This document shows, piece after piece, positions 8,427 to 37,108 of a stretch of 39,993 nt of DNA. This stretch comes from an uncultured Prevotella sp. (GTDB lineage: Bacteria > Bacteroidota > Bacteroidia > Bacteroidales > Bacteroidaceae): NCBI GenBank assembly GCA_946623195.1, contig CAMOQW010000006.1:1-39993 (forward strand), written 5' to 3'. Every line of letters begins with the position of its first letter. Within the stretch, counting starts at the first letter, position 1. A program made the translations under genes and the position numbers. A model generated the notes under the pieces. The model had not been told where the DNA came from, ran no database searches, and worked only from the letters and a program-made list of their open reading frames with translations.

Positions 8427-8454
8427 AATTCTTAATTCTTAATTCTTAATTCTT
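8427..8454 (+). repeat. Four perfect 7-bp repeats (AATTCTT) upstream of purB
   Basis: Four exact tandem copies of AATTCTT lie between the tRNA terminator and the purB -7 box. The array covers the place where the -33 element should be, 10 nt before TACCTTTG. It belongs to the group of 7-bp-period arrays found through the window. Confidence 0.9.
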
Positions 8455-8464
8455 ATTTTATTTG

Positions 8465-8472
8465 TACCTTTG
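8465..8472 (+). promoter_or_regulatory. purB promoter -7 box
   Basis: A perfect TACCTTTG at 8465-8472 has no TTTG at the right distance upstream; the 7-bp array occupies that place. The ATG is 56 nt downstream. Confidence 0.65.
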
Positions 8473-8528
8473 CACGGTCATTGAGACAATGTGTAGCTAT
8501 ATATAATTTAAGGTAATAAGAGAAAGTC

Positions 8529-9878
8529 ATGGAATTAGACGCTTTAACAGCCATCTCGCCTATTGATGGCCGCTATCGGAATAAGACGGAAAAACTGGCA
8601 GAATACTTCTCGGAGTATGCACTGATTCGCTATCGGGTGCGTGTGGAGATAGAGTATTTCATCACCCTGTGTGAGTTGCCCCTTCCCCAATTGGAAGGTT
8701 TCGACCATAGCCTCTTCCCGCAGCTTCGCGACATCTACCTTCATTTCACTGAGCAGGATGCTGCCCGCGTGAAGGAGATAGAGCAGACCACCAATCACGA
8801 CGTGAAGGCCGTAGAGTACTTTATCAAGGAACGCCTTGCGACTCTTGATGGTTTCCCCCTTGAAACTCAGGAGTTTATTCACTTTGGCCTGACGTCACAG
8901 GATATCAACAACACCTCGGTACCCCTTTCTGTCAAAGAGGCCCTGGAACAGGTGTATTATCCCATGGTGGAAGAGCTGGTTGAGCAGTTGAACGACTATG
9001 CCGAACAGTGGAAGCAAGTGCCGATGTTGGCCAAAACCCATGGTCAGCCCGCTTCACCGACCCGCTTGGGTAAGGAGATCATGGTCTATGTCTACCGCCT
9101 CGAACAGCAGCTGCAGGGTTTGAAGGATACTCCCATTACCGCCAAGTTCGGTGGTGCTACGGGCAACTATAATGCTCACCATGTGGCCTATCCGCAGTAT
9201 GACTGGCGCGAGTTTGGCAATCAATTTGTCAGCGAGAAACTCGGACTGGAACGCGAGGAGTGGACTACCCAGATTTCCAACTATGACTGGCTGGGAGCCA
9301 TCTTCGATGCGATGCGCCGCATCAATACCATCATCATCGACCTGGACCGCGACTTCTGGATGTATATCTCGATGGAGTACTTCAAGCAGAAAATCAAGGC
9401 CGGAGAGGTGGGCAGCAGTGCCATGCCTCATAAGGTGAACCCCATTGACTTCGAGAATTCTGAAGGTAATTTGGGCATTGCCAATGCTGTCTTGCAATTC
9501 CTGGCACAGAAATTGCCGGTCAGCCGACTGCAGCGTGACCTCACGGACTCAACGGTGCTGCGCAATGTGGGAGTGCCAATGGGACACGCCCTGATAGCCC
9601 TGCAGAGTACGCTGAAGGGGTTGCGCAAACTCATCCTCAATGAAGAGAAGTTGCAGCAAGACCTTGACAACACGTGGGCTGTGGTGGCAGAAGCCATCCA
9701 GACCGTGCTGCGCCGCGAGGCCTATCCCCATCCCTATGAAGCCCTGAAGGCGCTGACGCGTACCAACCAGAAGATGACCGAGGAAACGATTCATGCCTTT
9801 ATCCAACAGCTTGAGGTCAGTGACGAGGTTAAGAAGGAATTGATGGCCATTACGCCGATGAACTATACAGGAATGTAG
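8529..9878 (+). CDS. purB: Adenylosuccinate lyase
   Basis: 449 residues, close to the Escherichia coli-type PurB. It catalyses two fumarate-releasing steps of purine synthesis: SAICAR to AICAR, and adenylosuccinate to AMP. The N-terminus LTAISPIDGRYRNKTEKL is typical of the family. KTHGQPASPTRLGKE carries a catalytic-region His, and the superfamily signature SSAMPHKVNP lies at residues 296-305 with its flexible serine loop. It has a recognisable -7 box 56 nt upstream. The next gene follows after 96 nt with no terminator, so read-through into rluB and asnS is possible. Confidence 0.97.
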   Translation: MELDALTAISPIDGRYRNKTEKLAEYFSEYALIRYRVRVEIEYFITLCELPLPQLEGFDHSLFPQLRDIYLHFTEQDAARVKEIEQTTNHDVKAVEYFIKERLATLDGFPLETQEFIHFGLTSQDINNTSVPLSVKEALEQVYYPMVEELVEQLNDYAEQWKQVPMLAKTHGQPASPTRLGKEIMVYVYRLEQQLQGLKDTPITAKFGGATGNYNAHHVAYPQYDWREFGNQFVSEKLGLEREEWTTQISNYDWLGAIFDAMRRINTIIIDLDRDFWMYISMEYFKQKIKAGEVGSSAMPHKVNPIDFENSEGNLGIANAVLQFLAQKLPVSRLQRDLTDSTVLRNVGVPMGHALIALQSTLKGLRKLILNEEKLQQDLDNTWAVVAEAIQTVLRREAYPHPYEALKALTRTNQKMTEETIHAFIQQLEVSDEVKKELMAITPMNYTGM

Positions 9879-9974: not shown

Positions 9975-11369
9975 ATGGAATTCGAAAACGAAAAGCAAAA
10001 CACAGAGCAGGCTGCTGAGCAGCAGCACAGCAACGAAAGCCAAGAAGGAGGCAATCAGAGTAACTATCGTCCGGGACGCTCGCCCCGTCCGCGTATTCAC
10101 CAGCAGACACGGCCCTACGCACCGGGAGGTCTCAACCACCGCTCGTCGCAGGAGGAAGGTGGCTTCCGTCCTGAGGGCTTCGGTGCCGGTTTGCAGGGTG
10201 CTGCTCCACAGCGCGGCGGTTATCGTCCTCGTAACAACTATAATCATGACGGCGGCTATCAGTCGCGTCAGCAGGGTGGCTATCGTCCCCGTCCGCAGCA
10301 TGGTCAGCAGGACGGCGGCTATCAGTCTCGTCCTCAGCAGGGCGGCTATCGTCCGCGTCCGCAGTATGGTCAGCAGGACGGCGGCTATCAGCCTCGTCCT
10401 CAGCAGGGCGGCTATCGTCCGCGTCCGCAGTATGGTCAGCAGGACGGCGGCTATCAGCCTCGTCCTCAGCAGGGCGGCTATCGTCCGCGTCCGCAGTACG
10501 GTCAGCAGGGTGGCTATCAGGGTCGTCCCCAAGGAGGCTATGGCCCTCAGCGCGGTGGTTTCAACAAGAAGCAGCATGGTGCTTACGATCCTAATGCCAA
10601 GTATAGCTTGAAGAAGCGCATCGAATATAAGGAAGAGAATTACGATCCCAATGAACCCATCCGCCTGAACAAGTTCCTGGCAAATGCCGGCGTATGCAGC
10701 CGCCGTGAGGCCGACGAGTTCATCCAGGCAGGTGTGGTGACAGTGAATGGTGAGGTCGTCACCGAACTGGGTACCAAGGTTCTGCGTACCGACGAGGTGA
10801 GGTTCCACGACCAGCCCGTCACCATGGAGAAGAAGGTGTACGTGCTGCTCAACAAGCCTAAGGACTACGTGACCACCAGCGACGACCCCCAACAGCGTAA
10901 GACCGTGATGGACTTGGTGAAGAACGCCTGTCCTGAGCGTATCTATCCGGTAGGACGCCTGGACCGCAACACCACGGGTGTGCTGCTGCTCACCAATGAT
11001 GGCGACCTGGCTTCGAAACTGACCCACCCGAAGTTCTTGAAGAAGAAAATCTATCACGTCTATCTGGACAAGAACGTGACCGCTCACGATATGCAGCAGA
11101 TTGCTGAAGGCATCCAGTTGGAGGATGGCGAAATCAAGGCCGACGCCATTGACTATGCCAGCGATACCGACAAGAAGCAGGTGGGCATTGAGATTCACTC
11201 GGGCAAGAACCGCATCGTGCGCCGTATCTTCGAGAGCTTAGGCTATAAGGTTACCAAGTTGGACCGCGTACAGTTTGCCGGTCTGACCAAGAAGAATGTC
11301 CGTCGCGGCGATTGGCGCTACCTCACCGAAGAGGAGGTGGATCGTCTGAGAATGGGAGCGTATGAATAA
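9975..11369 (+). CDS. rluB: RsuA/RluB-family rRNA pseudouridine synthase with repetitive R/G/Q-rich N-terminus
   Basis: 464 residues from ATG 9975 (MEFENEKQNTE); a GTG at 9939 is possible but less likely. It converts uridine to pseudouridine in rRNA. Residues 1 to about 205 are disordered and very rich in Gly, Gln, Arg, Tyr and Pro, including three perfect-length 22-residue repeats (GGYRPRPQYGQQDGGYQPRP plus QQ). An S4 RNA-binding domain starts near residue 229 (IRLNKFLANAGVCSRREADE). The catalytic domain carries GRLDRNTTG at 327-335, with Asp330 as expected nucleophile. The catalytic part most resembles RluB/RsuA; which rRNA base it modifies cannot be decided here. The long low-complexity arm probably adds non-specific RNA binding or self-association (inference). 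AsnS follows 55 nt later. Confidence 0.93.
   Translation: MEFENEKQNTEQAAEQQHSNESQEGGNQSNYRPGRSPRPRIHQQTRPYAPGGLNHRSSQEEGGFRPEGFGAGLQGAAPQRGGYRPRNNYNHDGGYQSRQQGGYRPRPQHGQQDGGYQSRPQQGGYRPRPQYGQQDGGYQPRPQQGGYRPRPQYGQQDGGYQPRPQQGGYRPRPQYGQQGGYQGRPQGGYGPQRGGFNKKQHGAYDPNAKYSLKKRIEYKEENYDPNEPIRLNKFLANAGVCSRREADEFIQAGVVTVNGEVVTELGTKVLRTDEVRFHDQPVTMEKKVYVLLNKPKDYVTTSDDPQQRKTVMDLVKNACPERIYPVGRLDRNTTGVLLLTNDGDLASKLTHPKFLKKKIYHVYLDKNVTAHDMQQIAEGIQLEDGEIKADAIDYASDTDKKQVGIEIHSGKNRIVRRIFESLGYKVTKLDRVQFAGLTKKNVRRGDWRYLTEEEVDRLRMGAYE
10275..10508 (+). repeat. 66-bp in-frame tandem repeats inside the pseudouridine synthase gene
   Basis: Three 66-bp units lie at 10275-10340, 10341-10406 and 10407-10472, with a 36-bp partial fourth unit to 10508. 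Units 2 and 3 look identical; unit 1 differs by a few silent or near-silent changes. The unit length is a multiple of three, so copy number can change without breaking the frame. Confidence 0.95.
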
Positions 11370-11374
11370 TGATT

Positions 11375-11392
11375 AATGAGTAATTACTCATT
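11375..11392. repeat. 18-bp perfect palindrome between rluB and asnS
   Basis: AATGAGTAATTACTCATT is its own reverse complement. It lies 6 nt after the rluB stop and overlaps the start of a 7-bp-period array. There is no T tract, so it is not a typical terminator. Confidence 0.8.
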
Positions 11393-11412
11393 GCCCATTT
11401 CTCATTACTAAT
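11385..11412 (+). repeat. 7-bp-period array between rluB and asnS
   Basis: Four degenerate heptamers: TACTCAT, TGCCCAT, TTCTCAT, TACTAAT. The array ends 12 nt before the asnS ATG. Confidence 0.7.
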
Positions 11413-11424
11413 TAGAGACAGAAT

Positions 11425-16941: not shown

Positions 16942-19073
16942 TTCTTTGCTATTCGTTTCTTGTTGATCCAGCGGAGGATGCTGTCGTAGATGCTGCTCTC
17001 CTCCTGGTGCTGTGCTGCGGTGAAGGTCATGGCGTCCTCCTTGGCCTCGCCATACTGGTCGGGGAAGATGATCATGATGTTCTTGCCGCTGAAGTGCTGT
17101 TGCATTTCGTTGGGCAGTCGCTCCAGGGCACTCTTATACGAGATGGTACCCTTACGTGCCGTGATGACCACGAACATGTGGTCGCCATTGATGGTCTCAG
17201 CCAGTTGGGGCAGTTCGTTCCAGTGTGCCATGTAGGTATATTCCGCCCTCACGTTGGGATGACGGTTGTTGATGTATTCGCGAATCAAGTCCATCGACTC
17301 GTTGCGCCCGTGGAACTGGATGCGGCAGTCTAAGTTGCCTGCCATGCGGGCCAGCCGCTCCAGCCATCGGTGGAAGCCCGGCTCGAATTCTGCCCGCGAC
17401 GGTACCACCACCTGTATGCGGCGCAGCGTGTTCAGCGGTTGTACGAAGCGTGTCAGGATAATCTGCCGGTTCAGTCCGTTGTAGAGACTCTGGATGAAGT
17501 CGCCCCAGAATTTCGGGTTCACCTCCGTATGCACGTGCATGCCCATGATGATTTCCGAGGCTCCGAACTCGCGGAAGGCGTGCTTGATGCCGTTGGCAAT
17601 ATTGGTGGCCAGCCGCACCTGTGTCTGCATGTGGACGTCCGACGAGGCCGCCCGCTGTTCCAGTTGTTCCAACAGCAGCAAGCCTCTTTCCCGGTTCTTG
17701 GCGGCCTGGTCGTCGTCATACACCACGTTCAGGGCTACCAGTCCGCGGTTCAGCTTCTGGTTGCGCATCATGATGGCCATGTCCAGCAGTTGTGGTGCTA
17801 TCTCAGGGTATTTTACGCAGAGGAATATCTTTTCGTCGTCCTGCTGCCGGCTATCGGCTGTTGGCTGCTGACTGTTGGCAATGACGATTTCCTGTGCCGC
17901 ATGTTCCGTCATCAGGGTTGAGATGATGCAGGTAATCAGAATCATGATGATGACACCGTTCAGCATCTCATTGTTCACCAGGTAGTGGCCAGGTGCCACC
18001 TCCAGTCGCATGCCCACCATCACCATGGCGATGGCACCGGCGGCATGGGCGCAGGTCAGACCGAACATCATGTTGCCTGCCGACTTGGGCAGTCGGAACA
18101 GCAGGCTCGACAGGTAGGCCGCCACAGCCTTGCCGAAGGTGCCGAAGAATGCTATCAGCAGTACTATCCAAAGCATGCGAGGCCCCTCGAACAGCGTGCC
18201 GATGTTGATGAGCATGCCCACGCCTATCAGGAAGTAGGGGATGAAGAGCGCGTTACCGATAAACTCGATGCGGTTCATCAGCGGCGACACGTGCGGTATA
18301 TACCTATTTAATATAAGCCCAGATATGAAGGCCCCCACGATGCCCTCTACGCCGATGGCCTCCGACAGGGCTGCCGACAGGAACATGACAGCCAGCACGA
18401 AGATGAACTGCATGACGGCATCCGAATAGCGACGCAGGAAATAGCGGGCCAGTTTCGGAATCAACCATACCGTGCCTGCGCAGAACAGCCAGAACTTCAG
18501 CAGGAACTGCACCCAGAAACCTATGCCGACATCTTCGCCGTACGACGCTGCCAGTGCTGCCAGCATCAGCAGGGCCAGGAATAGCGACAGCATGCTTGAC
18601 CCTACGCTCAGCATGACGCTGGAGTCGCGCTGCAGTCCGTAGCGCGAGATGATGGGGTAGGCGATGAGTGTGTTCGACGCCATGATGCAGCCCAGCAGAA
18701 ATGACGCCGTAGCCGAATAGTCGAGCAGCCAGATGGCCATGATGTAGGTGAGTCCTAACGGCACCAGACAGGTCAGTAGTCCGAAAATGAGAAAGCGCTT
18801 CGAGTTCTTCTTCACGCTCTCCATGTCCATCTCCAGACCGGCCAGAAACATGATGTAGAGCAGACCTACCTTGCCAAAGAGCTCGAAGGATGAATCGCGC
18901 ACCAGGATGTTCAGCCCGTGTTCGCCGACGACGACTCCCGCCAGCACCATGCCGATGATATGGGGAATGCGCAGCTTGCCCATGATGATGGGGGCAAACA
19001 GGATGATGAGCAGCACCACGCAGAAGATAAGCGTGGGACTGGTGATGAGTGGTTGTATGTTGTAGCCGGGCAT
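16938..19073 (-). CDS. CPA2-type cation:proton antiporter with C-terminal soluble region
   Basis: 711 residues from ATG 19073 ([13 protein letters not shown]). An upstream in-frame start at 19127 overlaps the promoter and is rejected. Residues 1 to about 395 contain about 12 hydrophobic segments with the CPA2 features [20 protein letters not shown] and [18 protein letters not shown]. It is expected to exchange Na+ or K+ for protons across the inner membrane. Residues 397-408 are a Gln/Ser-rich linker encoded by a 7-bp-period repeat (see repeat at 17848). Residues 410-711 form a soluble cytoplasmic part resembling two universal-stress-protein-like domains, a common arrangement in Bacteroidales antiporters. 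The downstream LolD gene is coupled by a 4-base overlap. Confidence 0.9.
17848..17882 (+). repeat. 7-bp-period array inside the antiporter gene
   Basis: Five degenerate heptamers (CGGCTAT, CGGCTGT, TGGCTGC, TGACTGT, TGGCAAT) encode the minus-strand linker [12 protein letters not shown], between the membrane part and the soluble domains. One unit more or less would shift the frame, since 7 is not a multiple of 3. Confidence 0.75.
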
Positions 19074-19232: not shown

Positions 19233-19246
19233 CAGGCGGAAGGTTA

Positions 19247-20312: not shown

Positions 20313-20333
20313 TTTTCACTTTTCACTTTTCAC
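20313..20333 (+). repeat. Three perfect 7-bp repeats (TTTTCAC) upstream of asd
   Basis: Three exact copies of TTTTCAC followed by TTT lie 16 nt before the asd -7 box, covering the expected -33 region. Confidence 0.9.
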
Positions 20334-20349
20334 TTTACCCTTTTTTTAT

Positions 20350-20357
20350 TACCTTTG
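20350..20357 (+). promoter_or_regulatory. asd promoter -7 box
   Basis: A perfect TACCTTTG 38 nt before the ATG. No TTTG is found 19-21 nt upstream, where the 7-bp array lies instead. Confidence 0.65.
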
Positions 20358-22086: not shown

Positions 22087-23653
22087 AGTAGATATTGTTT
22101 GCTTTTCGATGTTGCATGTTAAGTGCGGCGTGCGCCTTCAGGCGGGTGCCAGGCACGATGAAGTCGTATCTCACGTTGCCGCCGACGGTGTATTGCGGTG
22201 CCGTCAGATATTGGTATTCCTGCCATAGCCAGGCCTCCATTTCGGCGGGTGGCGTCTGCTTGTCGCTGGGTGTGGCGAAGGTGTCGTCCTCGAAAGGCTC
22301 ATCGCTGCCCTTGCTGTAGCCGATGCTGGCACCAACGGTCAGCACGCCGTGCCGCATGGCGATGTGGCGGGTGCCCTCTGCTGTCAGACCGGTGGCCGAC
22401 AGCCGCTGGCGGCGCAGGTAGGGGTAGCAGTAGGCCGTCTGGCGGCGGTGCATGAGTGTCACGACGGCCCGCACGGTCCAGGTGGGCAGTTCGTGGCAGA
22501 TGCCGTAGTGGCCCGTATAGCCCAGCGTGGTGTTGACCCACCGCTTGTCGCCGGTTTTCACGTCGTCGTAGTATTCGTAGTAGTAGGAGCCCTTCTCGTT
22601 CTGCATCTCGCGGTAGGTCTCAGCATTGTTTCGCAGCACTTCGGCGTCGATGTTGGCCGTCAACTGGTGCAGGGTGCCGGCAGACGGGCGGTAGCTCAGT
22701 AGGGCGTTGTAGCTGTATCGGTTGCCGTGGTGGTTGGTGAAGGTGATGGTGTAGGGCGAGCGTCGTCCGTAGTAGCCCTTGCGATGTGTGAAGCCGAAGT
22801 TGTTGTAGAACGACAGCCCGTCTGCCGGCGTCAGTTCCAGTTGTACGTCCAGCCCGTGCCCTTCGTCGAAGAGCGGCATCTCGCGCGACTTGTCGGTATA
22901 GCCGTAGTTGCCGAACTGCTCCACCCGTCCGATGAAGTTTCCGTAGTCGATGAGCGACTTGTACACCTTTTCACCCTTGCCGTAGGTGCTGAAGGTGACG
23001 CTCTCCGTTTGGCGGTGGTATCGGTAGTTGGCACCGATGGTGAATAGTGAGCGGTGAGCGGTGAGTGGCGAGAAGGTGAGGCCTGCCGTCAGCGTCAGGT
23101 CCATCAGCTTGTTCTTGTGGCGCAGGTCCTTGTATTTGGCGTAGTTGGCGGCGGTATAGTCGATGCGCAGGCCGGCGGCCATGCCTTTGGTGACCTGGCA
23201 GCCCACGGCCCCCGTCAACTGGTAGGTGTCGCGATGCTTGCGGCCCAGGTTGGTCAGCGAGTCCTCCACGATGTCGAAGGGCAGGCGTGTCGGGTCGATG
23301 AATGCCGACCCCGCCATGTCGCGGCCGGTCCAGTTGTCGTAGTTCATGCGCCCATAGACCACCGTCCGCTGGGAGATGCGGTAGAACGACTCGATGCCTG
23401 CCGTCAGCATTAGCGTCTTGGGCGACTCGAAATAGTTGACGAAGCCGCCGCGTCCCATGCCGATGCTCACTTCGGCCTCAGCGATGGCTGCAGACCGGTA
23501 GCGCGTCAGTCCGGCGGCATTAGGACCGGTGAGCCATGCCTCCTGCTGCTTCACAAACCGGTAGTCGCGGAGCAGCAGCGAGTCCTGGGCGTGACTGCCG
23601 GCATGATATGCCAGCATACAGGACAAGAGAGTGAATGTCAACAGTCGCTTCAT
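22028..23653 (-). CDS. DUF6850-type outer-membrane beta-barrel protein (operon A)
   Basis: 541 residues. A signal peptide (1-22, ending SHAQ) is followed by a long barrel with many Tyr/Arg-rich strands, ending in the barrel-typical MAIAVGCTF with terminal Phe. The opening DYRFVKQQEAWLTGPNAAGL parallels SYRLSDQQQLWHQTRNAAGM in the operon B homologue at 31439, showing the two are paralogues of similar length. Residues 193-204 (FSPLTAHRSLFT) are encoded by a 7-bp-period repeat. It probably acts with the TonB receptor and the DUF4876-type lipoproteins at the outer membrane (inference from the repeated neighbourhood). Confidence 0.85.
   Translation of the reverse strand: MKRLLTFTLLSCMLAYHAGSHAQDSLLLRDYRFVKQQEAWLTGPNAAGLTRYRSAAIAEAEVSIGMGRGGFVNYFESPKTLMLTAGIESFYRISQRTVVYGRMNYDNWTGRDMAGSAFIDPTRLPFDIVEDSLTNLGRKHRDTYQLTGAVGCQVTKGMAAGLRIDYTAANYAKYKDLRHKNKLMDLTLTAGLTFSPLTAHRSLFTIGANYRYHRQTESVTFSTYGKGEKVYKSLIDYGNFIGRVEQFGNYGYTDKSREMPLFDEGHGLDVQLELTPADGLSFYNNFGFTHRKGYYGRRSPYTITFTNHHGNRYSYNALLSYRPSAGTLHQLTANIDAEVLRNNAETYREMQNEKGSYYYEYYDDVKTGDKRWVNTTLGYTGHYGICHELPTWTVRAVVTLMHRRQTAYCYPYLRRQRLSATGLTAEGTRHIAMRHGVLTVGASIGYSKGSDEPFEDDTFATPSDKQTPPAEMEAWLWQEYQYLTAPQYTVGGNVRYDFIVPGTRLKAHAALNMQHRKANNIYYEENGKDHTQMAIAVGCTF
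23041..23075 (+). repeat. 7-bp-period array inside the DUF6850-type gene
   Basis: Five heptamers (TGAATAG, TGAGCGG, TGAGCGG, TGAGTGG, CGAGAAG), two of them identical, encode the minus-strand segment LTAHRSLF in a predicted loop. Confidence 0.8.
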
Positions 23654-26766: not shown

Positions 26767-26807
26767 TGTTGTTTTGTTTTTTAGTGTGATTAAAAATGGT
26801 GATATGT

Positions 26808-29804
26808 TTATAACTTGAGTCTCAGGGATAGCCCGTAGTAGAAGCTGGGGATGTAGCTGCTGCCGAAGAGCGATGTCTCCAGGTCGGTTTGCGAGGAGCG
26901 TACGGTGCTCATGTTGCGGAGGAAATTGTTGGCATAGAACGACAGGCTGACGTGGTCGCCAATCTCCTTGGTCACACTCAGGTTGGCCGAATAGTAGGCC
27001 GACAGGCGGTTGGGGTTCATTACGTAGGCATAGTTGGAACGAACCACCAGTTTCGTCAGGTCGTTGTAGAGGGTCGGGTCGTTGTCCTTGGCCCACAGGA
27101 ATTTCTCGGCAAAGGGAATCATCTCCGTGGGGTTGTCCCAGGTGGTATAGTATTCGGGATAGACGGCAATGAACTTGTTCTCGCTGTTGCCGTCATAGGG
27201 CGTACCGATGTAGTCACTGTTGTTGTCCAGCACATAGCCACGTGTTCCGTCGTTTAGCTCGCTCAGCTGGCGACGGTAGTTGTAGAGCGAAGTTTCCAGG
27301 CGCAGGGCCACAATCATACGGATTTTAGGGATATGCGTGGTCACCGTCACGTTCAGGTTGGTTTGTTTCGACAGGATGCCGTTGCTGACTGATGCCAGCG
27401 CACTGCTGCCCGCCGTAGTCACGCTCGAACCGCGATAGTAGCCCACGTAGCCGTAGGGCTTGTTGCCTGTCATGGTGGTATTGACTCCTAAGGGGATGTC
27501 GGCAAACAGCGTCTCGTCGACACCTTTGTAGCGGTAGTAGTTGCCGTCCAGTCGGATACTGGTGCGCAGGGCCTTGATGGGTGCGAAGTCGATGGTCCAT
27601 TCCACCCCATAGCGGCTCACGGGACTGGCATTGATGTAGTGGTTGTTGACAGCGTAGGTGTTGCGCTCGCTGTAGGTCAGAGCTTTCGGTTCGGCGCTGC
27701 CCGTGGCATCGCTGACGGTGACAATACCCGTCAGCCTGTCAACGCTGAAGCGGCGCTGGTCGGCAGGAATGGTGATGCCGTTGAGGGCCGCCGGTGCCGT
27801 GTACTTATAGGTCATGGGGGAAAAGATGTCCGTGGACATGTAGGGCCGGAAGGTCTTGTGATGGAACACCGACAGAGCCACACGCGTTCCCTTGATGTTC
27901 AGCTCGATGCCACAGTCGGTCTGTTGGGTGTACTGCCAGCGCAAATCGGGATTGTAGAGAGCCTTCGAGGGATAGGTGTGATAGGCATAGTAGGAACGGT
28001 TGTCGCTGGTTGATGTCGAGGCGAAGGCCAGACGGTCGGCATACGACGGACTGGGGTAGAGCACCTGGAACGACGGCAACTTGACGCTCTTGCCCCATCC
28101 GGCATGCAGCAGCAGGTCGCTGACGATGCGCTTGCGCTGGTTGCGCCAGAAGATGTAACGTCCGTTGAAGCGGGGCGACAGCGTGCTGACCGTGCCATAG
28201 TCGGAGCCGCTGATCAGGGTGATGTCGTCGCGCAGACCGGCTGTCAGTTCCACGGAGGAACGCCGGGCTGTGGGGATGATGACCTTGTCTTCCAGATAGA
28301 GCGCTACGTTGTGCATGGTGGGCAGGTCGGCGTAGCGGTATTCACGCCAGGTGGGGGCATAGCGCATGTCGTCGTAGTAGGTGCCGCGACCGCTGTTGTG
28401 ACTGCCGGAGTAGTCGGCGCCCAGCATCAACCGGTTGGTCCATTGAACATTGAACGTTGAACATTGAACATGGTCTTCGGCTTTCAACTTCACCGACCAC
28501 GACAGCGGCTTCGAGTCGTTGAAGCTCTTGACGTACCAGTAGCCGGTGGGGCCCAGGATGATGCTGGCATCGGGATTTGCATCGTAGTCTTGGGCGATGA
28601 AGTAGCCCTCTTCCATCGTGTGGATGTAGGGCTGTGTCGAGGCACTGCTGGTGCTGGCATAGGTCTCGCTGCGCTTGTCGGCATACGACAGCGATGCTTT
28701 CAGCGAGAGGTTGGTGAGCCACGACTTGTTCAATAGCCAGTTCAATTCGATGTGTGCCCGGAATGCATTGTCGCGCACTTTGCGGTAGTCGTCTAACTGT
28801 TCGTCGGGGTCGGCCTCCGAGTTGTAGCCGCCTATGTTGCCACTTAGCCCTACGTTGAGTGTCAGTGGCATGGTCCGCTTCATCAGCGTGTTCATGTAGT
28901 TCAGCGACAGGATGTTGCGCTGGTAAGCCGTGTGGGGCGAGGCGGCATCGCTGAAGCTGCGTGCGTGTTCGAACGATGCGTTCAGCACTCCCTTGCCTTT
29001 GCCTAAGTCAAACCCCTTGTTCAGGGCTATCTGGCGCGTGTGCTGGTTGATTTTTCCTTCTACGACGAAGGGCGACTTGCCGCGCCGGGTGTTCACTTTG
29101 ACCACGCCGTTCGACAGGTCGCCGTATTCCACTGAGGGGATGCCGGTCACCACCTCAATACTCTCTACGTTCGATGCGCTGATGGTGCGGGTGGAGGCTC
29201 CGTTGGTCTCGCCCAAGGTGGCATTGTTGTCCATGCGTACCCCGTCCACCTCGATGGCGGTGCCAAAAGAGGCGTTGCCCCGTTCCTGACTGCCCGACCG
29301 CAGGGCCATGCGGCTGTCGCTCATCAGCGAAGGGTTCTCCGTCTTGCCACCGGGCAAGAGGGCGGCTACTTCGCCGATGTTCAGCACCTGCTGCTGGTCC
29401 AGAGCAACTCGGTCGATGGTGTAACTGGTGGTTGCCTCGTCGGTCTTGCGGCGAGCGGTCACCGTCACTTCGTCCAGTTTCAGACTTTCCTGTTTCATCT
29501 TCAACCGGAGATGGTCTACGTTGCGGGTCAACGTCATGGGCAACGTACGCTTCTGATAGCCCAGACACTGTGCGATGAGTGTCAGCTTGCCAGCCCTCAC
29601 ATTGCGGATGGTGAAGCGACCGTCCTCGTCGCTGACGGCCCACTGTCCCGTCTCTTGCAGCAGGATGCTGGCAAACTCAACGGGTTTGCCGTTGTCGTCT
29701 TGGATAATCTGTCCGGATAGTGTCAGTTGTTGTGCCCTTGCCGTGCTGACAAAGGTGACTAAGCACAAGAGCATTGAAACATATCTGATGCGAAGCATGG
29801 GCAC
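26808..29804 (-). CDS. TonB-dependent receptor with CarboxypepD_reg-like domain (operon A)
   Basis: 998 residues. A signal peptide (1-24, ending ARAQ) precedes a carboxypeptidase-regulatory-like beta domain (about 27-110: FASILLQETGQWAVSDEDGR). A plug domain follows (about 115-240: FGTAIEVDGVRMDNNATLG and IEVVTGIPSVEYGDLSNGVV), then a 22-strand-type barrel ending in LSLRLKL. Such receptors import a ligand across the outer membrane using TonB energy. It lacks a SusD neighbour. The plug has GIPSxEYGDLxxGxVxV in common with the receptor at 34203, so they are paralogues. Residues 445-455 (QCSTFNVQW region) are encoded by a 7-bp repeat array. It heads a seven-gene operon; its own promoter carries a palindromic element. 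Confidence 0.93.
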   Translation of the reverse strand: MPMLRIRYVSMLLCLVTFVSTARAQQLTLSGQIIQDDNGKPVEFASILLQETGQWAVSDEDGRFTIRNVRAGKLTLIAQCLGYQKRTLPMTLTRNVDHLRLKMKQESLKLDEVTVTARRKTDEATTSYTIDRVALDQQQVLNIGEVAALLPGGKTENPSLMSDSRMALRSGSQERGNASFGTAIEVDGVRMDNNATLGETNGASTRTISASNVESIEVVTGIPSVEYGDLSNGVVKVNTRRGKSPFVVEGKINQHTRQIALNKGFDLGKGKGVLNASFEHARSFSDAASPHTAYQRNILSLNYMNTLMKRTMPLTLNVGLSGNIGGYNSEADPDEQLDDYRKVRDNAFRAHIELNWLLNKSWLTNLSLKASLSYADKRSETYASTSSASTQPYIHTMEEGYFIAQDYDANPDASIILGPTGYWYVKSFNDSKPLSWSVKLKAEDHVQCSTFNVQWTNRLMLGADYSGSHNSGRGTYYDDMRYAPTWREYRYADLPTMHNVALYLEDKVIIPTARRSSVELTAGLRDDITLISGSDYGTVSTLSPRFNGRYIFWRNQRKRIVSDLLLHAGWGKSVKLPSFQVLYPSPSYADRLAFASTSTSDNRSYYAYHTYPSKALYNPDLRWQYTQQTDCGIELNIKGTRVALSVFHHKTFRPYMSTDIFSPMTYKYTAPAALNGITIPADQRRFSVDRLTGIVTVSDATGSAEPKALTYSERNTYAVNNHYINASPVSRYGVEWTIDFAPIKALRTSIRLDGNYYRYKGVDETLFADIPLGVNTTMTGNKPYGYVGYYRGSSVTTAGSSALASVSNGILSKQTNLNVTVTTHIPKIRMIVALRLETSLYNYRRQLSELNDGTRGYVLDNNSDYIGTPYDGNSENKFIAVYPEYYTTWDNPTEMIPFAEKFLWAKDNDPTLYNDLTKLVVRSNYAYVMNPNRLSAYYSANLSVTKEIGDHVSLSFYANNFLRNMSTVRSSQTDLETSLFGSSYIPSFYYGLSLRLKL
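28441..28468 (+). repeat. 7-bp-period array inside the operon A TonB receptor gene
   Basis: Four heptamers CATTGAA, CATTGAA, CGTTGAA, CATTGAA (one mismatch), encoding VQCSTFNVQ on the minus strand. Nearly perfect repeats of this kind are prone to slipped-strand change. Confidence 0.9.
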
Positions 29805-29820
29805 TCTTTATATTCGGGCG

Positions 29821-29868
29821 CAAAGTTACGAAATAATTGTTTCTTCTGCAATACCTACTTTTAGGTAT
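29821..29868 (-). promoter_or_regulatory. Operon A promoter with inverted-repeat operator
   Basis: Minus-strand TAACTTTG (29821-29828) has ATTG (29849-29852) 20 nt upstream. A perfect inverted repeat ATACCTA-CTTT-TAGGTAT (29851-29868) overlaps this -33 element. The string TGCAATACCTA (29847-29857) occurs again at the same distance from the -7 box of operon B. Confidence 0.7.
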
Positions 29869-29871
29869 GTC

Positions 29872-31382: not shown

Positions 31383-31417
31383 TGTGTTCCTTATTTTTTT
31401 TTGTTTCTTATTATTCT

Positions 31418-31438
31418 CTCACCTCTTACCTCTCTCCT
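31418..31438 (+). repeat. 7-bp-period array between operon B genes
   Basis: Three heptamers CTCACCT, CTTACCT, CTCTCCT abut the stop codon of the DUF6850-type gene, 36 nt before the next gene's ATG at 31382. Confidence 0.75.
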
Positions 31439-32995
31439 CTAATAATACAACCCGATGCTCACCCCGACGGTGGAGCGGTGGAGACTGTGCTGTGCACCGA
31501 CATACTGACCATAGCAGCGGGCAAACCATTGCGTCTGCCGACTCTTGATGGGAATGGGGTGCTGGTATTCCAGTTGCAGTCGACCTCGGAAAAAGTCGGC
31601 ATCCAGTATGGTCACGTCAGGCAACAGCACGGCGGTGGCAAAGTCGGTGGTGGCATCAGCCAGGACCAGGTCGGTCTTCTTGGCAGCATGGTAGCCAGCC
31701 TCGGCATCCACCATAAGCCGATGGCCCCATAGCGATACGCCTCCTTCGAGGGTGATGTCCGAACCGCCATGATCCAATTTGCTGACGGGCAGTAGCCGCT
31801 TGTTGCTGATGTTGTTCAGGGCATATCTGATGCCCACATAACCTTGTTGCCGCTGGCCATCGGTCATCGTCAGCCGGTAGTGGGCGGTGAGTTGGAGTTG
31901 CTTCATCTGGTAGCGCTTACGGTATTCCATGGTGGTCTGCCAGTGTACAGAGGTGTAGCCCGTCTGACCGTCGGTTTCTGAGATGCGCTCCTGGCGGTAT
32001 TCGTCAGCGTAGGCCTGTTCGTAGTTGACGGCGGCATCCCACGAGTGCAGCAGTTTGCCCCGATGCAGGCGGTTCTGGGTGGATAGGCCATAGCTGTAGG
32101 TGTAGTAGCGGCCGGGTTCATACTTGTTGGTACCGTAGATGTATTCCGTGCCGTGAATGAGGGTGATGGCTGTCACATTGTGGAATGCCGTACCCTGAAA
32201 ACCGTAGCTCAGTTCGCCCCCGAACTCATGGTTTACATATTCCCGCATGTAGCCCTGATAGCCGCCAATCGTTCCTGTGGCTTGTTCGAGGCCTGTCATG
32301 ACGTAGTATTTCAGATTGGGGTCGGTCTGTATGGTAGTCAGTCCGGTCAGTTTCTCTTTACGGCGTTCGTAGTGCAGGGCGGCTCCCAAGCGATGGCCCA
32401 TACCCATGTCGAACGTTATGGAGGGTGTGATGCGATAGTCCAGCAGGTTGATGCGTGAACGGGGGTCGCGCAGTCGGCTCAGGTCGCCTACCTCATAGTG
32501 CAGGCTGGCCCCGTAAGTGAAACGGCCCAGTTGTATGGTCGACAGGCTGGCATCGAGCGTGAAGTCCTGATGGTCGTACTTGCCGTAGACACTGCTGCCC
32601 GAGATGAACGGGTCGGCATCGTAGGAGCGCATCACGTCGCTCCAGGCACGCTGCTTGGTGCGCCCCATGTTGAAGTCGAAGGCGCCATAGCCGTAGAGAT
32701 AACGGCCAATCTTCTGATAACGCTCAGTGAAGAAACGGAGGTTGTTTTGCATTCCGCCGTCCTGAATACGGTGGTAGTCGCCGTCCACATGGTGATAGTC
32801 GAAATAGGCTGTGCCGCGGTTGGCGGAACTGTCGGTAGCGGCAAAGTCGAAAGTCATGCCTGCGGCATTGCGCGTCTGGTGCCACAGCTGTTGCTGGTCG
32901 CTCAGCCGATAGCTGGTGGCGGTGACTTGTGCATCGATTGTTGCGGCGATGGCGCAACATATAGAACAGAGGGCGAGGGGGAGTATCCTTTTCAT
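31439..32995 (-). CDS. DUF6850-type outer-membrane beta-barrel protein (operon B)
   Basis: 518 residues. A signal peptide (about 1-23, ending IDAQ) is followed by SYRLSDQQQLWHQTRNAAGM, matching the start of the paralogue at 22028, and a long barrel rich in Tyr, Arg and Gly (YGASLHYEVGD, LGAALHYERRK). It ends GVSIGLYY with an aromatic residue, as outer-membrane barrels do. It starts 1 nt after the stop of the DUF4876-type gene, so the two are closely linked. It is probably an outer-membrane partner of the operon B receptor. Confidence 0.86.
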   Translation of the reverse strand: MKRILPLALCSICCAIAATIDAQVTATSYRLSDQQQLWHQTRNAAGMTFDFAATDSSANRGTAYFDYHHVDGDYHRIQDGGMQNNLRFFTERYQKIGRYLYGYGAFDFNMGRTKQRAWSDVMRSYDADPFISGSSVYGKYDHQDFTLDASLSTIQLGRFTYGASLHYEVGDLSRLRDPRSRINLLDYRITPSITFDMGMGHRLGAALHYERRKEKLTGLTTIQTDPNLKYYVMTGLEQATGTIGGYQGYMREYVNHEFGGELSYGFQGTAFHNVTAITLIHGTEYIYGTNKYEPGRYYTYSYGLSTQNRLHRGKLLHSWDAAVNYEQAYADEYRQERISETDGQTGYTSVHWQTTMEYRKRYQMKQLQLTAHYRLTMTDGQRQQGYVGIRYALNNISNKRLLPVSKLDHGGSDITLEGGVSLWGHRLMVDAEAGYHAAKKTDLVLADATTDFATAVLLPDVTILDADFFRGRLQLEYQHPIPIKSRQTQWFARCYGQYVGAQHSLHRSTVGVSIGLYY

Positions 32996-32996
32996 C

Positions 32997-34196
32997 TTAG
33001 TATTCGCGGGGTTTGATAGTGGCAGAGTTGACGAAATCGTTGAGTGAGTTGTTGGTATCCTGCAGTACTACGCGTCCGTCGGACGTGATGCTGGCGGTCC
33101 GTCGGCATACCACCTCGCCGGAGTAGCCATTGGCCGACGAACAGTAGGTATAGCCAGCATCCAGATAGTCGTAGAGTCGTTTGGTATAGATGTCGGGGCC
33201 GGTCTGCGAACGGTTCTTCAGCACCTCCACGGCATCGATGACAGCACTGGTGGGAATCTCCATAAACAGGTTGCCGCGTGTTTTGCCGTAAGCATAGACG
33301 CGAGGCCACTGGGTGACATCCTCGTCAGTGCTGAAAATAACTACGGAGGCTGGCCCGCCCTGTACTAGGTTCATGTAGGTCAGTGTGCTGTAGCAGGTAT
33401 ATACCAGTTCCAGTGCCGGAGTGTCGGGGTTGTTGGTGGTGCGCCCTTGGATGTCCTTGGCCTCGAAGTCGGCATCCAGCAGGTTGTATTCGTAGGCATT
33501 CTGTGCCGTCAGCGTATGGTCGATGGCGCTGTTTACTAATAGCAACGTGCCGCCTGGCTCAATGGTGACGGCCGTAGTGGTGGGAATACGGTACACTTGT
33601 TTGGCAAATACCGTGTCGGGTACCTGGCCTGGCACGTAGGCTACCGTGCTCTCCGTTTCCGTCAGGGCGATGTATAGTCCGGCAGCATCGACGGTCTCGC
33701 CAGAGTTGTTGTAGATTTCTATGTATTTACCGGCCACGTAGTTGCGATTGTTAGCATCCTTGCTGCCTTCATAGTATATCTTGCCGATGAGCAACGACTG
33801 GTCTTTCTGTACCGTAGTGGTGAGGCGGATGGGGGTGTCGCTGCTGGCAGCGAGCATCTGCGTGTTCAGACTGCCCGACACCGTATAGGTGGCATTCTCA
33901 ATATGATTGCCCGTCAGGGTGGCATACTCCTCGGCCGTCATCTTCCATGAGGTTGAAATGTCATAGTTGTCGGGAACGATATTCTGGAAGGTCACCATGC
34001 CTTCGGCATCGGTCTCGGCTGTGATATTTTGTCCGTTCAACGACAAGGTGACTACTTTGCCTGCCACGTTGGCTGCTCCGAATCCGTCGGGCATGACAAC
34101 TTGTACTTTCACTGTGACGGGCTGTGTGGCATCGTCGAAATCCACACAGCTGACGAGCGTGCAGACGGTTAATAGTGTTATCAGTATCTTTTTCAT
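32997..34196 (-). CDS. DUF4876-type lipoprotein with fused N-terminal Ig-like domain (operon B)
   Basis: 399 residues. The lipobox LVSC gives Cys17. Residues about 24-90 are an Ig/prealbumin-like domain (VTVKVQVVMPDGFGAANVAG, TDAEGMVTFQNIV). The rest is the DUF4876-type domain: IGKIYYEGSKDANNRNYVAG, KYIEIYNNSGETVDAAGLYI, AIDHTLTAQNAY, and RVVLQDTNNSLNDF near the end. KYIEIYNNSGE resembles lamin-tail-like sandwiches (weak). It lies 6 nt after the TonB receptor and is probably its surface lipoprotein partner. Compare 25287 and 25681, where the two domains are separate genes. Confidence 0.88.
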   Translation of the reverse strand: MKKILITLLTVCTLVSCVDFDDATQPVTVKVQVVMPDGFGAANVAGKVVTLSLNGQNITAETDAEGMVTFQNIVPDNYDISTSWKMTAEEYATLTGNHIENATYTVSGSLNTQMLAASSDTPIRLTTTVQKDQSLLIGKIYYEGSKDANNRNYVAGKYIEIYNNSGETVDAAGLYIALTETESTVAYVPGQVPDTVFAKQVYRIPTTTAVTIEPGGTLLLVNSAIDHTLTAQNAYEYNLLDADFEAKDIQGRTTNNPDTPALELVYTCYSTLTYMNLVQGGPASVVIFSTDEDVTQWPRVYAYGKTRGNLFMEIPTSAVIDAVEVLKNRSQTGPDIYTKRLYDYLDAGYTYCSSANGYSGEVVCRRTASITSDGRVVLQDTNNSLNDFVNSATIKPREY

Positions 34197-34202
34197 TGCT
34201 AT

Positions 34203-36986
34203 TTACAAGTTAAAGAACAATTCTACACCGAAACTATAGGTTCCTGTGTTGCGCTGGGTCAGCGTACTTGAGGTGCTGGTGGTCATAAAGGGTTCGTAGA
34301 ACAGGGCATTGTTGGCATAGAACGACAGACCGGCTGTACGCCCCAGTTCCTTGGTGAGTCGGAACGAGAGATTCCAGGTGACGGGATTCTTCGTGGTGAC
34401 ATTGCTGCCTGCCTCTTTCTGCTGTTCGGCGACCTTGACATATTCAATGCCTGTCGGTTCGGCGGCATAGTAGTTACCATCGGCTCCCAAGTAGCCGCTC
34501 TGCATGTCGGCGGTCAGTTCGTGATAGTTGAGACCGGTATCTATCCAGCCAATCGGTGTCTTGGCGGCAGCATAGCTCAGTGTGGAGTTGTGCCAGATGA
34601 CCTGACCCGTGAACGAGGCCACCATGCGCAGTTGCGGGATGTTGGTTACCAGTCGCAGCGTGTTGACGAAACGGCGATAGCGGCTGTAGTCCAACTCTGA
34701 GGGATATACCATTTTGAAGGGGACGGTCTGATACTGGCTCCAGTTCCAGGTGGTGGTCTTGCTTTGGGGATTGTCTGCGTCTAAGTTCTTGGAGTAGCTC
34801 TTTGACTCCTGCCAGGCACCGCTCAGATAGACCGACGTGTTCAGCGGACGGATACGCCCGAGATCAAAGTCGAATTCAATGCCACGGTTGATGCTGACAT
34901 TGGTGTTGCCCACCTTGCCTGTAGTAGACCAGTAGGTGCTGGGGCGACTGCTGTCAGGGGTGCCTCCGCTGATGTCGATGCGTCCGTCGCTGCCAATGTT
35001 CAAACCGGCAGGCGTGGCGAAGTAGTAGACGGGGTAGGTGAGGAATTCCGTCACGTTACCGAAACCATTCGGGGTGCGGTCTTGGTAGGCCAGAATACTC
35101 AGCTTGTGCTTGCCCGGCAACAGGATGTCGATGCCAGCCTCTATCTTGGTGGTAGTGGCATTCTTCAGGTCTTTGGAAAAAGCGACATCATAGACGAAGG
35201 TGTGATAGCCGAGCATCTGGGCCGATACGTTGTTCTGAGGCATGTAGTTCAAGGCTACGCGGTCGGTATAGTGCTTGTCGGGATAAAGATAGGACAGGCC
35301 TGGCGTCTTCGAGTTCAGACCGAAACCTCCGCGCAGGTTGAGCCAGTCGGTCAGCTCCATAGTGACGTTCACGCGTGGCGACAGGGCAAAGGTGCGCACA
35401 TCATCGAAGGGCTGCATGGCTGTGAAACGGGCACCCAACTGGATGCGGAGGTTACGCTTTCCGGCATACTGCCATGTGAAGTTGTCCTCAGCGTATGCCG
35501 CTATCTGATGCAGACCCGGAATGTCGCTGAAGGCTCGCGGACGACCGTCACTGTTGGGACGTAGCGGGTGGCGCTCGTCATCGTTGTAGTAGCCGCGTCC
35601 CGAGTTCCAGTCGTACTTGTAGTCAACGCCCACCTTGAAACGCTGGTTGGTACGGCCTGTCTTCAGATAGAAAGAGTCGTTCACCTTCAGGTAGAAGTTA
35701 CCGGGATGCGAGTGGTTGATGCCGGTAGCCAGATAACTGGAGTTTTCCCATGGAATGCTCCAATATCCTGTCTCGGTGGCGGTGATGATGGGGATGAGAC
35801 CGCTGCTGGTGCCGACGAACGACGTGTTGCGGCTGTTGTTGGCCGTGAGACTCAGTCCAATGGTGTAGGAGATGTTGCGAGCCAGCAGTTTGTCGGGTGT
35901 CCATTTGCCGTTGTGGGTCAGCAGAAATGTTGCCTGGGTATTCTTCGACTGCGTGCCGTCGTCGATGGCATCAGGGTCATTGCCGCTCCAATCCTTGCCG
36001 TAGGTGTAGCGTAGCCGGGTGTCGGTATGCCACCGATGTGTGATGTCTACGCCGTAGCCTATGCTCAGGGTGTAGCGGTCGAAAGAGCGTGTCTTCTGGC
36101 GGGGATCGCCCCATGCCTGAGCGTAATCGATGTTGAAGTTCAGTACTCCGTAGCGGTCCATCTTCAGTCCTTTGCCCAACGAATAGTTCATGAGCGACGG
36201 GTTCACCTTACCCTTTACCTGCCAGGGCGTGATGCCTATCTTGCTGTGTACGACTACCATACCGCTGGTCAGGTCGCCGTATTCTGCCGAGGGGATGCCG
36301 CGAATCACCTCCACCTCGTCGATGTCATCGGCTGCTATCTGGCGCATATCGGTGCCGATGGCGGTGGTCGACGAGAAATCGCCTTGGCTTACGACGCCAT
36401 TGTTCGACAGGGGGACACCGTCTATCACGATACCTGAGCCAAAGCGGTTGGTGATGTTGTTGGCGGAAATCTCACGGAGTTGTAACTGCTGGCTGCTGGT
36501 CAGGTCGGCATTGCCCATGATATGGCCAGGCACCAACTGCATGATGTCGGCCAGCGACGAAGCCTGCAGATGGTCGATGGCCTGACGGCCAATGATGCTG
36601 CTGGTCGACGTGCCGCTGGCGTTCTGTCGGGCCACCACCATCACTTCGTTGAGGGCCAGAGTGGTAGGTTCCATCTGGAAGGTCAGCGACAGAGGTCCCG
36701 ATACCCGTATCTGGGTATTGAGGGACTGATAGCCCACATAACTGATGCTTAGCGTATAGAGCCCGGCTTCTACATGGGGAAAAGTGGCCCGGCCGTCCAT
36801 GTCGGTTACTGCCAGCAGTCCTGTGGGGTGCAGCTGAACGCTGGCCATGATAATCGCTTCTTGTGTCTGTTTGTCCTTTACCGTTAGGTTAACAGCGTAG
36901 GTCTTTTTGTCTGACTTCTGTGCCTCCAATCCTAAGGGGATGAGCGACAGCAGAAGAAACAGGAAAGTCTGCCTCATTATTTTCAT
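34203..36986 (-). CDS. TonB-dependent receptor with CarboxypepD_reg-like domain (operon B)
   Basis: 927 residues. A signal peptide (to about residue 22, LIPLGLEAQ) is followed by a regulatory-like beta domain (about 30-110: IIMASVQLHPTGLLAVTDMD). The plug comes next (about 118-245: FGSGIVIDGVPLSNNGVVSQ, VEVIRGIPSAEYGDLTSGMV), then a large barrel ending YSFGVELFFNL with the terminal aromatic-Xaa pattern. It shares plug wording, the GKxN...LxKGxxxxxxGVLN strand and gene order with the receptor at 26808. No SusD partner is present. The start at 36986 (MKIMRQ) could also be 36977 (MRQ). Its ligand is unknown; the HMA protein at the end of the operon points to a metal or metal complex (inference). 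Confidence 0.93.
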   Translation of the reverse strand: MKIMRQTFLFLLLSLIPLGLEAQKSDKKTYAVNLTVKDKQTQEAIIMASVQLHPTGLLAVTDMDGRATFPHVEAGLYTLSISYVGYQSLNTQIRVSGPLSLTFQMEPTTLALNEVMVVARQNASGTSTSSIIGRQAIDHLQASSLADIMQLVPGHIMGNADLTSSQQLQLREISANNITNRFGSGIVIDGVPLSNNGVVSQGDFSSTTAIGTDMRQIAADDIDEVEVIRGIPSAEYGDLTSGMVVVHSKIGITPWQVKGKVNPSLMNYSLGKGLKMDRYGVLNFNIDYAQAWGDPRQKTRSFDRYTLSIGYGVDITHRWHTDTRLRYTYGKDWSGNDPDAIDDGTQSKNTQATFLLTHNGKWTPDKLLARNISYTIGLSLTANNSRNTSFVGTSSGLIPIITATETGYWSIPWENSSYLATGINHSHPGNFYLKVNDSFYLKTGRTNQRFKVGVDYKYDWNSGRGYYNDDERHPLRPNSDGRPRAFSDIPGLHQIAAYAEDNFTWQYAGKRNLRIQLGARFTAMQPFDDVRTFALSPRVNVTMELTDWLNLRGGFGLNSKTPGLSYLYPDKHYTDRVALNYMPQNNVSAQMLGYHTFVYDVAFSKDLKNATTTKIEAGIDILLPGKHKLSILAYQDRTPNGFGNVTEFLTYPVYYFATPAGLNIGSDGRIDISGGTPDSSRPSTYWSTTGKVGNTNVSINRGIEFDFDLGRIRPLNTSVYLSGAWQESKSYSKNLDADNPQSKTTTWNWSQYQTVPFKMVYPSELDYSRYRRFVNTLRLVTNIPQLRMVASFTGQVIWHNSTLSYAAAKTPIGWIDTGLNYHELTADMQSGYLGADGNYYAAEPTGIEYVKVAEQQKEAGSNVTTKNPVTWNLSFRLTKELGRTAGLSFYANNALFYEPFMTTSTSSTLTQRNTGTYSFGVELFFNL

Positions 36987-37020
36987 TACTTCCGTTAGAT
37001 AGAACCAAATTTTGCGGGTG

Positions 37021-37068
37021 CAAAATTACTAATAAATTAGAACGCGTGCAATACCTATAAATGGTGAT
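37021..37068 (-). promoter_or_regulatory. Operon B promoter with the element shared with operon A
   Basis: Minus-strand TAATTTTG (37021-37028) has ATTG (37049-37052) 20 nt upstream. TGCAATACCTA lies at 37047-37057, exactly as far from the -7 box as in operon A. The second half-site here (37062-37068, TGGTGAT) is degenerate. Confidence 0.68.
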
Positions 37069-37080
37069 TTTGGGAAAATT

Positions 37081-37108
37081 CTTCACCCTTCATTCTTCAT
37101 TTTCCATT
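37081..37108 (+). repeat. 7-bp-period array upstream of the M16 protease gene
   Basis: Four heptamers CTTCACC, CTTCATT, CTTCATT, TTCCATT lie 9 nt before the -7 box and occupy the expected -33 region. Confidence 0.8.

Follow-up and report, generated by a model that had tools for sequence, protein, structure and literature searches.

Heptamer tandem repeats called STRR occur in heterocystous cyanobacteria, where they are also found inside the hairpins of an RNA gene, and by that general description the arrays reported here from Prevotella are alike in being heptamer tandem repeats. Heptamers were the commonest class of long simple sequence repeat (LSSR) in most genomes studied by Mrazek et al. 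(2007), who proposed slippage tied to a 7-nt polymerase contact; the passages that cite this work (PMC4679880, PMC4692102) name ten top genomes, with none from Bacteroidota among them. The Prevotella arrays share tandem 7-bp units beyond chance with LSSR-type heptamers; however, they are imperfect, have a length mode of 32–34 bp, a TCA core, and promoter sites, and take a step of 8 in some sister species. MacGregor (2015; PMC4679880) describes TAACTGA direct repeats in Beggiatoaceae, cyanobacteria, and five Bacteroidetes, with other heptamer direct repeats near TAACTGA in Gramella and Aequorivita and larger heptamer assemblages in Elizabethkingia. Those repeats, too, are intergenic heptamers with TGA, but they consist of one fixed unit that lies mostly right before start codons, whereas Prevotella has many related units, some of them just upstream of a −7 box. 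The heptamers GGGAATC and GGGGA(C/T)T of Xanthomonas and Nostoc, which differ in length and sequence among close relatives, are described in PMC4692102, where Calothrix heptamers are also mentioned, as G-rich and proposed to form quadruplexes; Prevotella units are mostly not G-rich. The BrickBuilt MITE of Porphyromonas gingivalis (PMC4596501) is intergenic, with a tandem repeat, inverted ends, and promoter activity, but it has a 23-nt unit and forms one sequence family; a comparable multiplied composite element was found here in only one genome (G023). The heptamer excess itself is thus already on record for many bacteria, and heptamer repeats for five Bacteroidetes. Among open-licence papers, none on heptamer arrays in Prevotella was found, and the searched passages of PMC4060949 yielded no mention of heptamers; the length mode, the promoter register, the in-place swap of units, and the 7- or 8-nt step by species appear to be undescribed in the searchable open-licence literature.

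The window, i.e., the whole stretch of DNA analyzed, comprises 39,993 nucleotides from an uncultured Prevotella sp.; it comes from a rumen Prevotella-type bacterium, since its AsnRS shares 95% identity with the AsnRS of an uncultured rumen Prevotella and with that of Prevotella sp. tc2-28, and its Pfam content is consistent with Bacteroidales. At a score of at least 12, it holds five period-7 arrays and 0 or 1 array at each other period from 4 to 20; period-7 arrays of this score averaged 0.00 in 30 Markov simulations (order 2, fitted per 2–4 kb block, codon structure not kept). Seven arrays reach a score of at least 9 (simulated mean 0.24, maximum 3 in 100 simulations) and nine a score of at least 8 (simulated mean 1.00, maximum 5). 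The initial annotation had listed at least eight heptamer arrays in this DNA and perhaps one more at its end. The seven with scores of at least 9 stand; the GGCTGTT-like array at 17848..17874 (+), with a score of 8 where about one is expected, is by itself indistinguishable from chance, and the array at 39970..39993 (+), which runs into the window end, is a period-8 array (AATATCGA), not a heptamer. One period-7 array missing from that list (7503–7517, score 8) is likewise at chance level.

Three of the arrays lie 6–9 bp upstream of TACCTTTG, which we take to be the Bacteroidota-type −7 promoter box (TAnnTTTG), and such promoter arrays overlie the position of the −33 element of Bacteroides promoters. 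The TTCTTAA array (8426..8455, +; 30 bp, 4.3 perfect copies, TRF score 60, score 23) covers the −33 region of the purB promoter, 9 bp upstream of the purB box (8465..8472, +); the TTTTCAC array (20313..20343, +; score 18) is located in the argC promoter (box 20350..20357, +), and the CTTCATT-like array (37081..37108, +; score 9) in the promoter of an M16 peptidase gene (box 37118..37125, +). Two arrays occupy gaps of about 55 bp separating co-directional orfs. One belongs to a composite of ATTAATGA and ATTACTC heptamers, partly palindromic (11362..11414, +; two TRF rows, score 13), which extends from the rluB end into the rluB–asnS gap (array at 11383); the other, CTCTCAC/CTCTTAC (31416..31440, +; score 9), lies between two minus-strand orfs. 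The remaining three are within orfs: the array at 17848 in that of a Na+/H+ exchanger (16938–19127, −), a CGCTCAC array (23047..23072, −; score 13) in that of a DUF6850 protein identified by Pfam (22028–23653, −), and a TTCAATG array (28441..28471, −; score 18) in that of a TonB-dependent receptor (26808–29804, −). TAACTGA, its complement, and any rotation of it are absent among the period-7 units of the window. A known RNA family was ruled out as the identity of the arrays, as an Rfam scan of the window found no family over any of them, tRNA-Val being the only match at gathering score.

The window contains several other features. A short orf at 20067–20288, which reads MKTAIIGGGAAGFFLAVNL... 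and is presumably flavoprotein-like, ends some 25 bp short of the argC promoter array and is perhaps a remnant of a deletion or rearrangement. A 66-bp repeat occurs four times at 10248–10546 and encodes GYQPRPQQ-type repeats in the N-terminus of an RluB-like pseudouridine synthase, and 22-bp imperfect repeats (TATGTTTATGGTACGCAGAACG) precede the gene of an HU-HIG DNA-binding protein (19245–19330). The region 22028–36986 (−) carries a repeated TonB receptor/DUF4876/DUF6850 set, with two genes each for the receptor and for DUF6850 and three for DUF4876.

The 7-bp period recurs in relatives. The 17 loci nearest by AsnRS (285 kb; simulated with order-2 Markov chains in blocks of 2–4 kb) contain 30 period-7 arrays and 0 for periods 3 to 6, along with 6 of period 8, 4 of period 9, and 13 of period 14, a multiple of 7. 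Raw counts per 400 kb, which have no simulations of their own, are 23 period-7 arrays in G001, 14 in tc2-28, 31 in G004, and 31 in G006, vs 0–2 for each of periods 3–6; in the same order, period 8 gives 10, 2, 4, and 10 arrays and period 9 gives 6, 2, 3, and 7. These densities are not a random sample, because G004 and G006 were sampled for the arrays in their first loci, G002 and G007 as isolates, and the first G023 stretch for its many pattern matches. The excess of 7 bp over 5, 6, 8, and 9 bp that the initial annotation had named as support for its proposal is seen in the window and in four of the five 400-kb samples of relatives; other counts speak against a simple 7-bp rule. By raw count, the isolate khp7 has 1 period-7, 11 period-8, and 2 period-9 arrays in 400 kb, and G041 has 1 period-7 and 4 period-8 arrays in 80 kb. 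In G023, 400 kb hold 26 arrays of period 7 and 21 of period 9, almost all of them within one of two 200-kb stretches. The period-8 arrays of khp7 (L081–L100), such as AAAGGTAA and AAGGAGAC, stand in place of heptamers. Period-9 ATCTAGAGA arrays of 51–96 bp were also observed in two other loci (L032, 864–959; L031, 6502–6552).

Whole-genome pattern counts, which are overlapping matches and not arrays, extend the comparison to the genus and the phylum. Four TCA at a 7-bp step are present in 35 of 40 genomes of the genus, with 0 to 370 matches per genome. Over the 40 genomes, step 7 yields 4692 matches for TCA and 2613 for the reversed pattern ACT, and step 8 yields 947 and 1609, respectively; the reversed pattern is not a true null, since ACT-type arrays exist. 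With both patterns pooled, the 7-step exceeds the 8-step in 32 of 40 genomes, one is tied, and the 8-step exceeds the 7-step in seven, three of which have fewer than 25 step-8 matches; for TCA alone the 8-step prevails in 2 of 40. Five of the 40 genomes have at most 10 matches of each step. Across the phylum, at least one 7-step TCA match occurs in 94 of 118 Bacteroidota genomes, the reversed control being often equally frequent. Most of the species sampled in this group thus favor a 7-nt step, and some favor an 8-nt step.

Our preferred explanation, which we hold tentatively, is that the arrays are short satellites that strand misalignment makes and homogenizes locally, in lineage-preferred steps of 7 nt or at times 8 nt, and that are kept where they are tolerated or useful. 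Misalignment during replication or repair would proceed either as slippage or as misalignment followed by realignment, and the realignment would alter units while leaving the length constant; the arms of hairpins would stay matched through template switching from one inverted arm to the other, and TCA/TGA-containing heptamers would be favored. Arrays would persist where tolerated, i.e., in intergenic gaps, at promoter positions −38 to −7, and in variable protein loops in a stop-free frame, and some were probably co-opted as promoter upstream elements or hairpin arms. It is rather unlikely that the arrays instead form a dispersed family of short cassettes, being the (solo) ends of MITE- or REPIN-like inverted-repeat elements with an ancestral period of 7 and TCA core, although the range from 0 to 370 matches per genome inside one genus would suit such a family. 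It is similarly doubtful that they are multi-copy sites for a putative DNA- or RNA-binding factor touching TCA/TGA every 7 bp (every 8 bp in some species), with four steps making about 32 bp, and aiding promoters or transcript ends; the range from array-rich to nearly array-free genomes would be compatible with this factor. Chance or an assembly artefact of metagenome-assembled genomes is highly improbable, and for the strong arrays it is refuted. In its favor, the two weakest arrays (17848 and 7503) do not exceed chance, several of the genomes sampled were assembled from metagenomes, and G004 and G006 were picked for the arrays in their first loci. Against it, the counts are far above simulations, 400 kb of the isolate tc2-28 contain 14 arrays, and in a genome with a 1.98-Mb contig one 200-kb stretch, chosen for its density, contains 25 arrays and another contains 1. 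Misalignment, an element family, and a binding factor are not exclusive, and a mixture is expected, in which locally homogenized satellites have in part been taken over by promoters.

In 2.7 Mb, the period-7 arrays have a mode at 32–34 bp (62 arrays), with 40 arrays at 29–31 bp and only 14 at 35–37 bp; short arrays of 17–22 bp number 89 vs 23 in simulations (order-3 Markov chains fitted per 2–4 kb block, codon structure not kept). No such mode was found at periods 5, 6, 8, 9, and 11 in the same 2.7 Mb. A typical array amounts to five copies of a 4-mer with four 3-mers between them. The median length in promoters (n = 26) is 30 bp; hairpins (26) and other intergenic DNA (91) both have a median of 33, and orfs (54) have one of 32. 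These context classes are approximate because orfs were called by length alone. The four period-8 arrays of G041 measure 31–35 bp, and the 11 of khp7 measure 26–84 bp, nine of them 26–38. Similar length in all contexts favors an element family, and the length mode also fits a binding factor with four steps. The mode counts against misalignment, since plain slippage predicts decaying lengths that vary by 7. Plain slippage was rejected, as the lengths do not simply decay and the resemblance between neighboring units is a weak signal. It favors misalignment but is only a little greater than after shuffling (z = −2.3, from the 141 arrays of 197 that could be used).

The units are not arbitrary. 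The initial annotation had described different unit sequences and a process independent of sequence; of the window units, TTTTCAC, CTCTCAC, CGCTCAC, CTTCATT, CTCATTA, and TTCAATG, read on one strand, all contain TCA, which leaves TTCTTAA and the unit at 17848 without it. Overall, TGA/TCA occurs in 121 of 171 units vs 49.6 expected when unit letters are permuted, a 2.4-fold enrichment, and the units are more alike than letter-permuted ones, which speaks against independence of sequence. The mean best unit identity is 4.74 of 7 within genomes (letter-permuted 4.18) and 4.47 of 7 between genomes (letter-permuted 4.15). The within-minus-between similarity is 0.40, where 200 label shuffles gave a maximum of 0.13, and this excess comes mainly from G023, with none in G006, tc2-28, or the window, which counts against an element family. 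The arrays therefore make up a family whose words are related, and only some genomes have clear dialects. A common unit is shared by 17 of 26 arrays in G023, 8 of 31 in G004, and 8 of 23 in G001; this sharing favors an element family and, against misalignment, points to spread. The TCA/TGA core is in line with a binding factor, but TGA/TCA is missing from 50 of 171 units, the reversed ACT is also common at the 7-bp step (2613 vs 4692 matches for TCA in the 40 genomes), and the copies are homogeneous at all seven positions (503 variants among 7088 bases), a uniformity not to be expected from selection for a core of 3 bp. As the selected feature, tandem stops in all three frames were rejected: the most depleted triplets of the 171 units include TAT, GGA, GAT, and TAG (TAG in 25 vs 49.6 expected), and TAA is outside both the 14 most enriched and the 14 most depleted.

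Promoter arrays mostly occupy about −38 to −7 from the TAnnTTTG box. Arrays with a score of at least 10 were paired with 557 TAnCTTTGC boxes lying up to 70 bp downstream, which gave 21 pairs (an array between divergent boxes counted twice); 19 of the 21 arrays start at −35 to −41 relative to the box, and 18 end at −12 to −4. Among 141 noncoding arrays, 18 abut such a box, vs 2.1 with random placement (maximum 8 in 200). This tight placement favors a binding factor; against it, there are only 21 pairs at 557 boxes. A general 7-bp rhythm of promoters was rejected, as lag-7 identity upstream of boxes in the relatives (e.g., 0.337 in G006, arrays included, and 0.298 in G004) is at most slightly above that of other lags.

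At purB, arrays of 30–32 bp lie 5–9 bp upstream of the box in the window and in seven relatives among 30 loci examined, with TTTTCAC units in L212, L215, L216, L220, and L223, CTTTCAA in L239, CTCAATT in L222, and CTTAATT in the window; L227 has a 44-bp array farther upstream. Four further loci, in a set of 47 most of which have none, also carry arrays there: 32 bp in L006, L013, and L025, and 39 bp in L005, lengths that have no simulation of their own. L212, L215, L216, and L220, which are 88–94% identical in 531 nt of purB (the ungapped purB identities of L223, L228, and L236, spoiled by an indel, were left out of use), have the same unit and copy number with few variants. Between L222 and L239 (86% identical in purB), two identical C/T differences recur in three successive copies, with one in the fourth, and there is no gap from the terminator to the box. 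The argC promoter of L004 similarly has AATTATG units in place of TTTTCAC. Old and invariant arrays, which the initial annotation would have counted against its proposal, were thus seen in part: four close species agree in purB copy number over 88–94% identity (first 531 nt of purB), and more distant ones have a different unit at the same site. Where the unit differs at the purB promoter, it does so in every copy, with length and place remaining constant; because the length is fixed while the letters change, something preserves the periodicity itself. This constancy of place and length favors a binding factor, and the near-uniform lengths (30–32 bp in the window and seven relatives, 32 bp in three more, 39 bp in L005) count against misalignment. 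In L228, L233, L236, and L238, about 85–90 bp with the purB promoter and array are missing and purB directly follows the tRNA-Val terminator, an absence that favors an element family.

Arrays in coding DNA, which the initial annotation had reported along with intergenic ones, number 54 of 197, counted in orfs that have 150 codons or more and make up 88% of the sequence. In 38 of the 54 every sense frame is free of stops, and for 30 of the 38 the opposite strand is stopped in all frames. Neither this stop-free frame nor the underrepresentation of arrays in orfs is proof of selection, since both partly follow from the orf definition. One loop of PurB carries arrays in 6 of 62 sequences (L002 and L238 being from the same genome), with five different units: CTCTCAC in L033 and L010, GTTCAAC in L227, AAATCTC in L026, TTCATCC in L021, and AACTTTC in L031; the other sequences have short or unrelated loops. 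These were accepted at a score of at least 8 and 17 bp, the 21-bp array of L021 being weak. A loop of AsnRS carries an array only in L016 (1 of 19 aligned), where it has 13 codons vs 7 in L011, and the TonB receptor array of the window encodes HVQCSTFNVQ in a segment that is variable among 12 homologues. The PurB and AsnRS arrays stand in place of native codons, and by eye no target-site duplication is apparent at them, which argues against an element family; a binding factor leaves the 54 arrays in orfs, and coding loops in particular, unexplained. The distribution in these loops (PurB 6 of 62 with five units, AsnRS 1 of 19) is what a repeated origin at tolerant places would give, and it fits misalignment.

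Among 41 neighboring array pairs separated by less than 250 bp, the inverted match is the better one in 21 and the direct match in 14, with 6 ties, a distribution that would suit inverted-repeat elements, but only 26 of 197 arrays fall in the hairpin class. By eye, inverted partners appear to keep matching units. In G023, heptamer arms surround a repeated period-9 CTAGGAATA core, and 155 similar-flank pairs occur among 27 arrays: a composite element has multiplied in this genome, and it counts, as does a pair of G001 hairpins with a common core, in favor of an element family. We observed many copies of GAGAGTT arms with the CTAGGAATA core in one 200-kb region of G023 (C3, 1.50–1.70 Mb, L241–L250) and one heptamer array in the other region of the same size. 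Elsewhere, similar-flank pairs are rare (2 in G001, 4 in G004, and 1, a promoter box, in G006), and no shared flanks were found in tc2-28 (16 arrays) or G041, which speaks against such a family. Two 8-step hairpins at different places in G041 share a variant unit, and their loops are dissimilar. A hairpin present in tc2-28 and L058 has identical flanks in both copies; it is therefore one orthologous locus with no sign of movement.

Pairs of internally varied arrays share a variant pattern in 0 of 351 cases in G004, 1 of 276 in G006, and 0 of 78 in tc2-28, where unit-order shuffles gave 1.4, 0.5 (maximum 1), and 0.0; there is thus no sign of recent whole-array copying in these genomes, a result that is weak where the null is near 0. 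In G001, sharing exceeds the mean of the shuffles (4 vs 1.1, with a maximum of 4), as it does in G023 (33 vs 23.6, with a maximum of 30); the period-8 arrays of khp7 show no clear excess (6 vs 3.9, null maximum 8). The results in G004, G006, and tc2-28 speak against recent whole-array copying and an element family there, and the slight excess in G001 and G023 favors such a family. A Y1/RAYT transposase was also rejected as the mobilizer: PF01797 (Y1_Tnp) matches 23 of 40 genomes, and its counts do not significantly track the pooled 7-step counts (Spearman 0.24, p 0.14). Length, shared units, and hairpins are all explained if an element family has spread, but such spread is evident in G023 only.

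Local misalignment with realignment, by comparison, accounts for the homogeneous copies, the concerted change, the matched hairpin arms, and the repeated origin in loops, and the unshared variant patterns between loci in G004, G006, and tc2-28 agree with it weakly. On the other side, it leaves the choice of 7, the 32-bp mode, and the TCA core unexplained, and the shared units within genomes and the composite element of G023 point to spread. The period, length, unit bias, placement, and concerted unit difference at constant length are observed, and from them we infer misalignment as the cause, with takeover of some arrays by promoters. A more speculative proposal, which we regard as improbable, is that one trans-acting protein or replication–repair complex, which has a pitch of 7 or 8 nt and either makes or needs four steps, sets both the step (7 in most species, 8 in some) and the total of about 32 bp as traits of a lineage. 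Periodicity and not sequence would then be inherited, and Bacteroidota promoters would use such sequence-flexible arrays at −38 to −7.

Collectively, these results concern a little-described class of repeats found at promoters, between genes, and in protein loops throughout Prevotella and, judging from pattern counts, in much of Bacteroidota. Sister species with a 7-step, with an 8-step, or nearly free of arrays provide a natural comparison for tracing the cause, and the arrays bear on the old question of why heptamers are so common among bacterial microsatellites.
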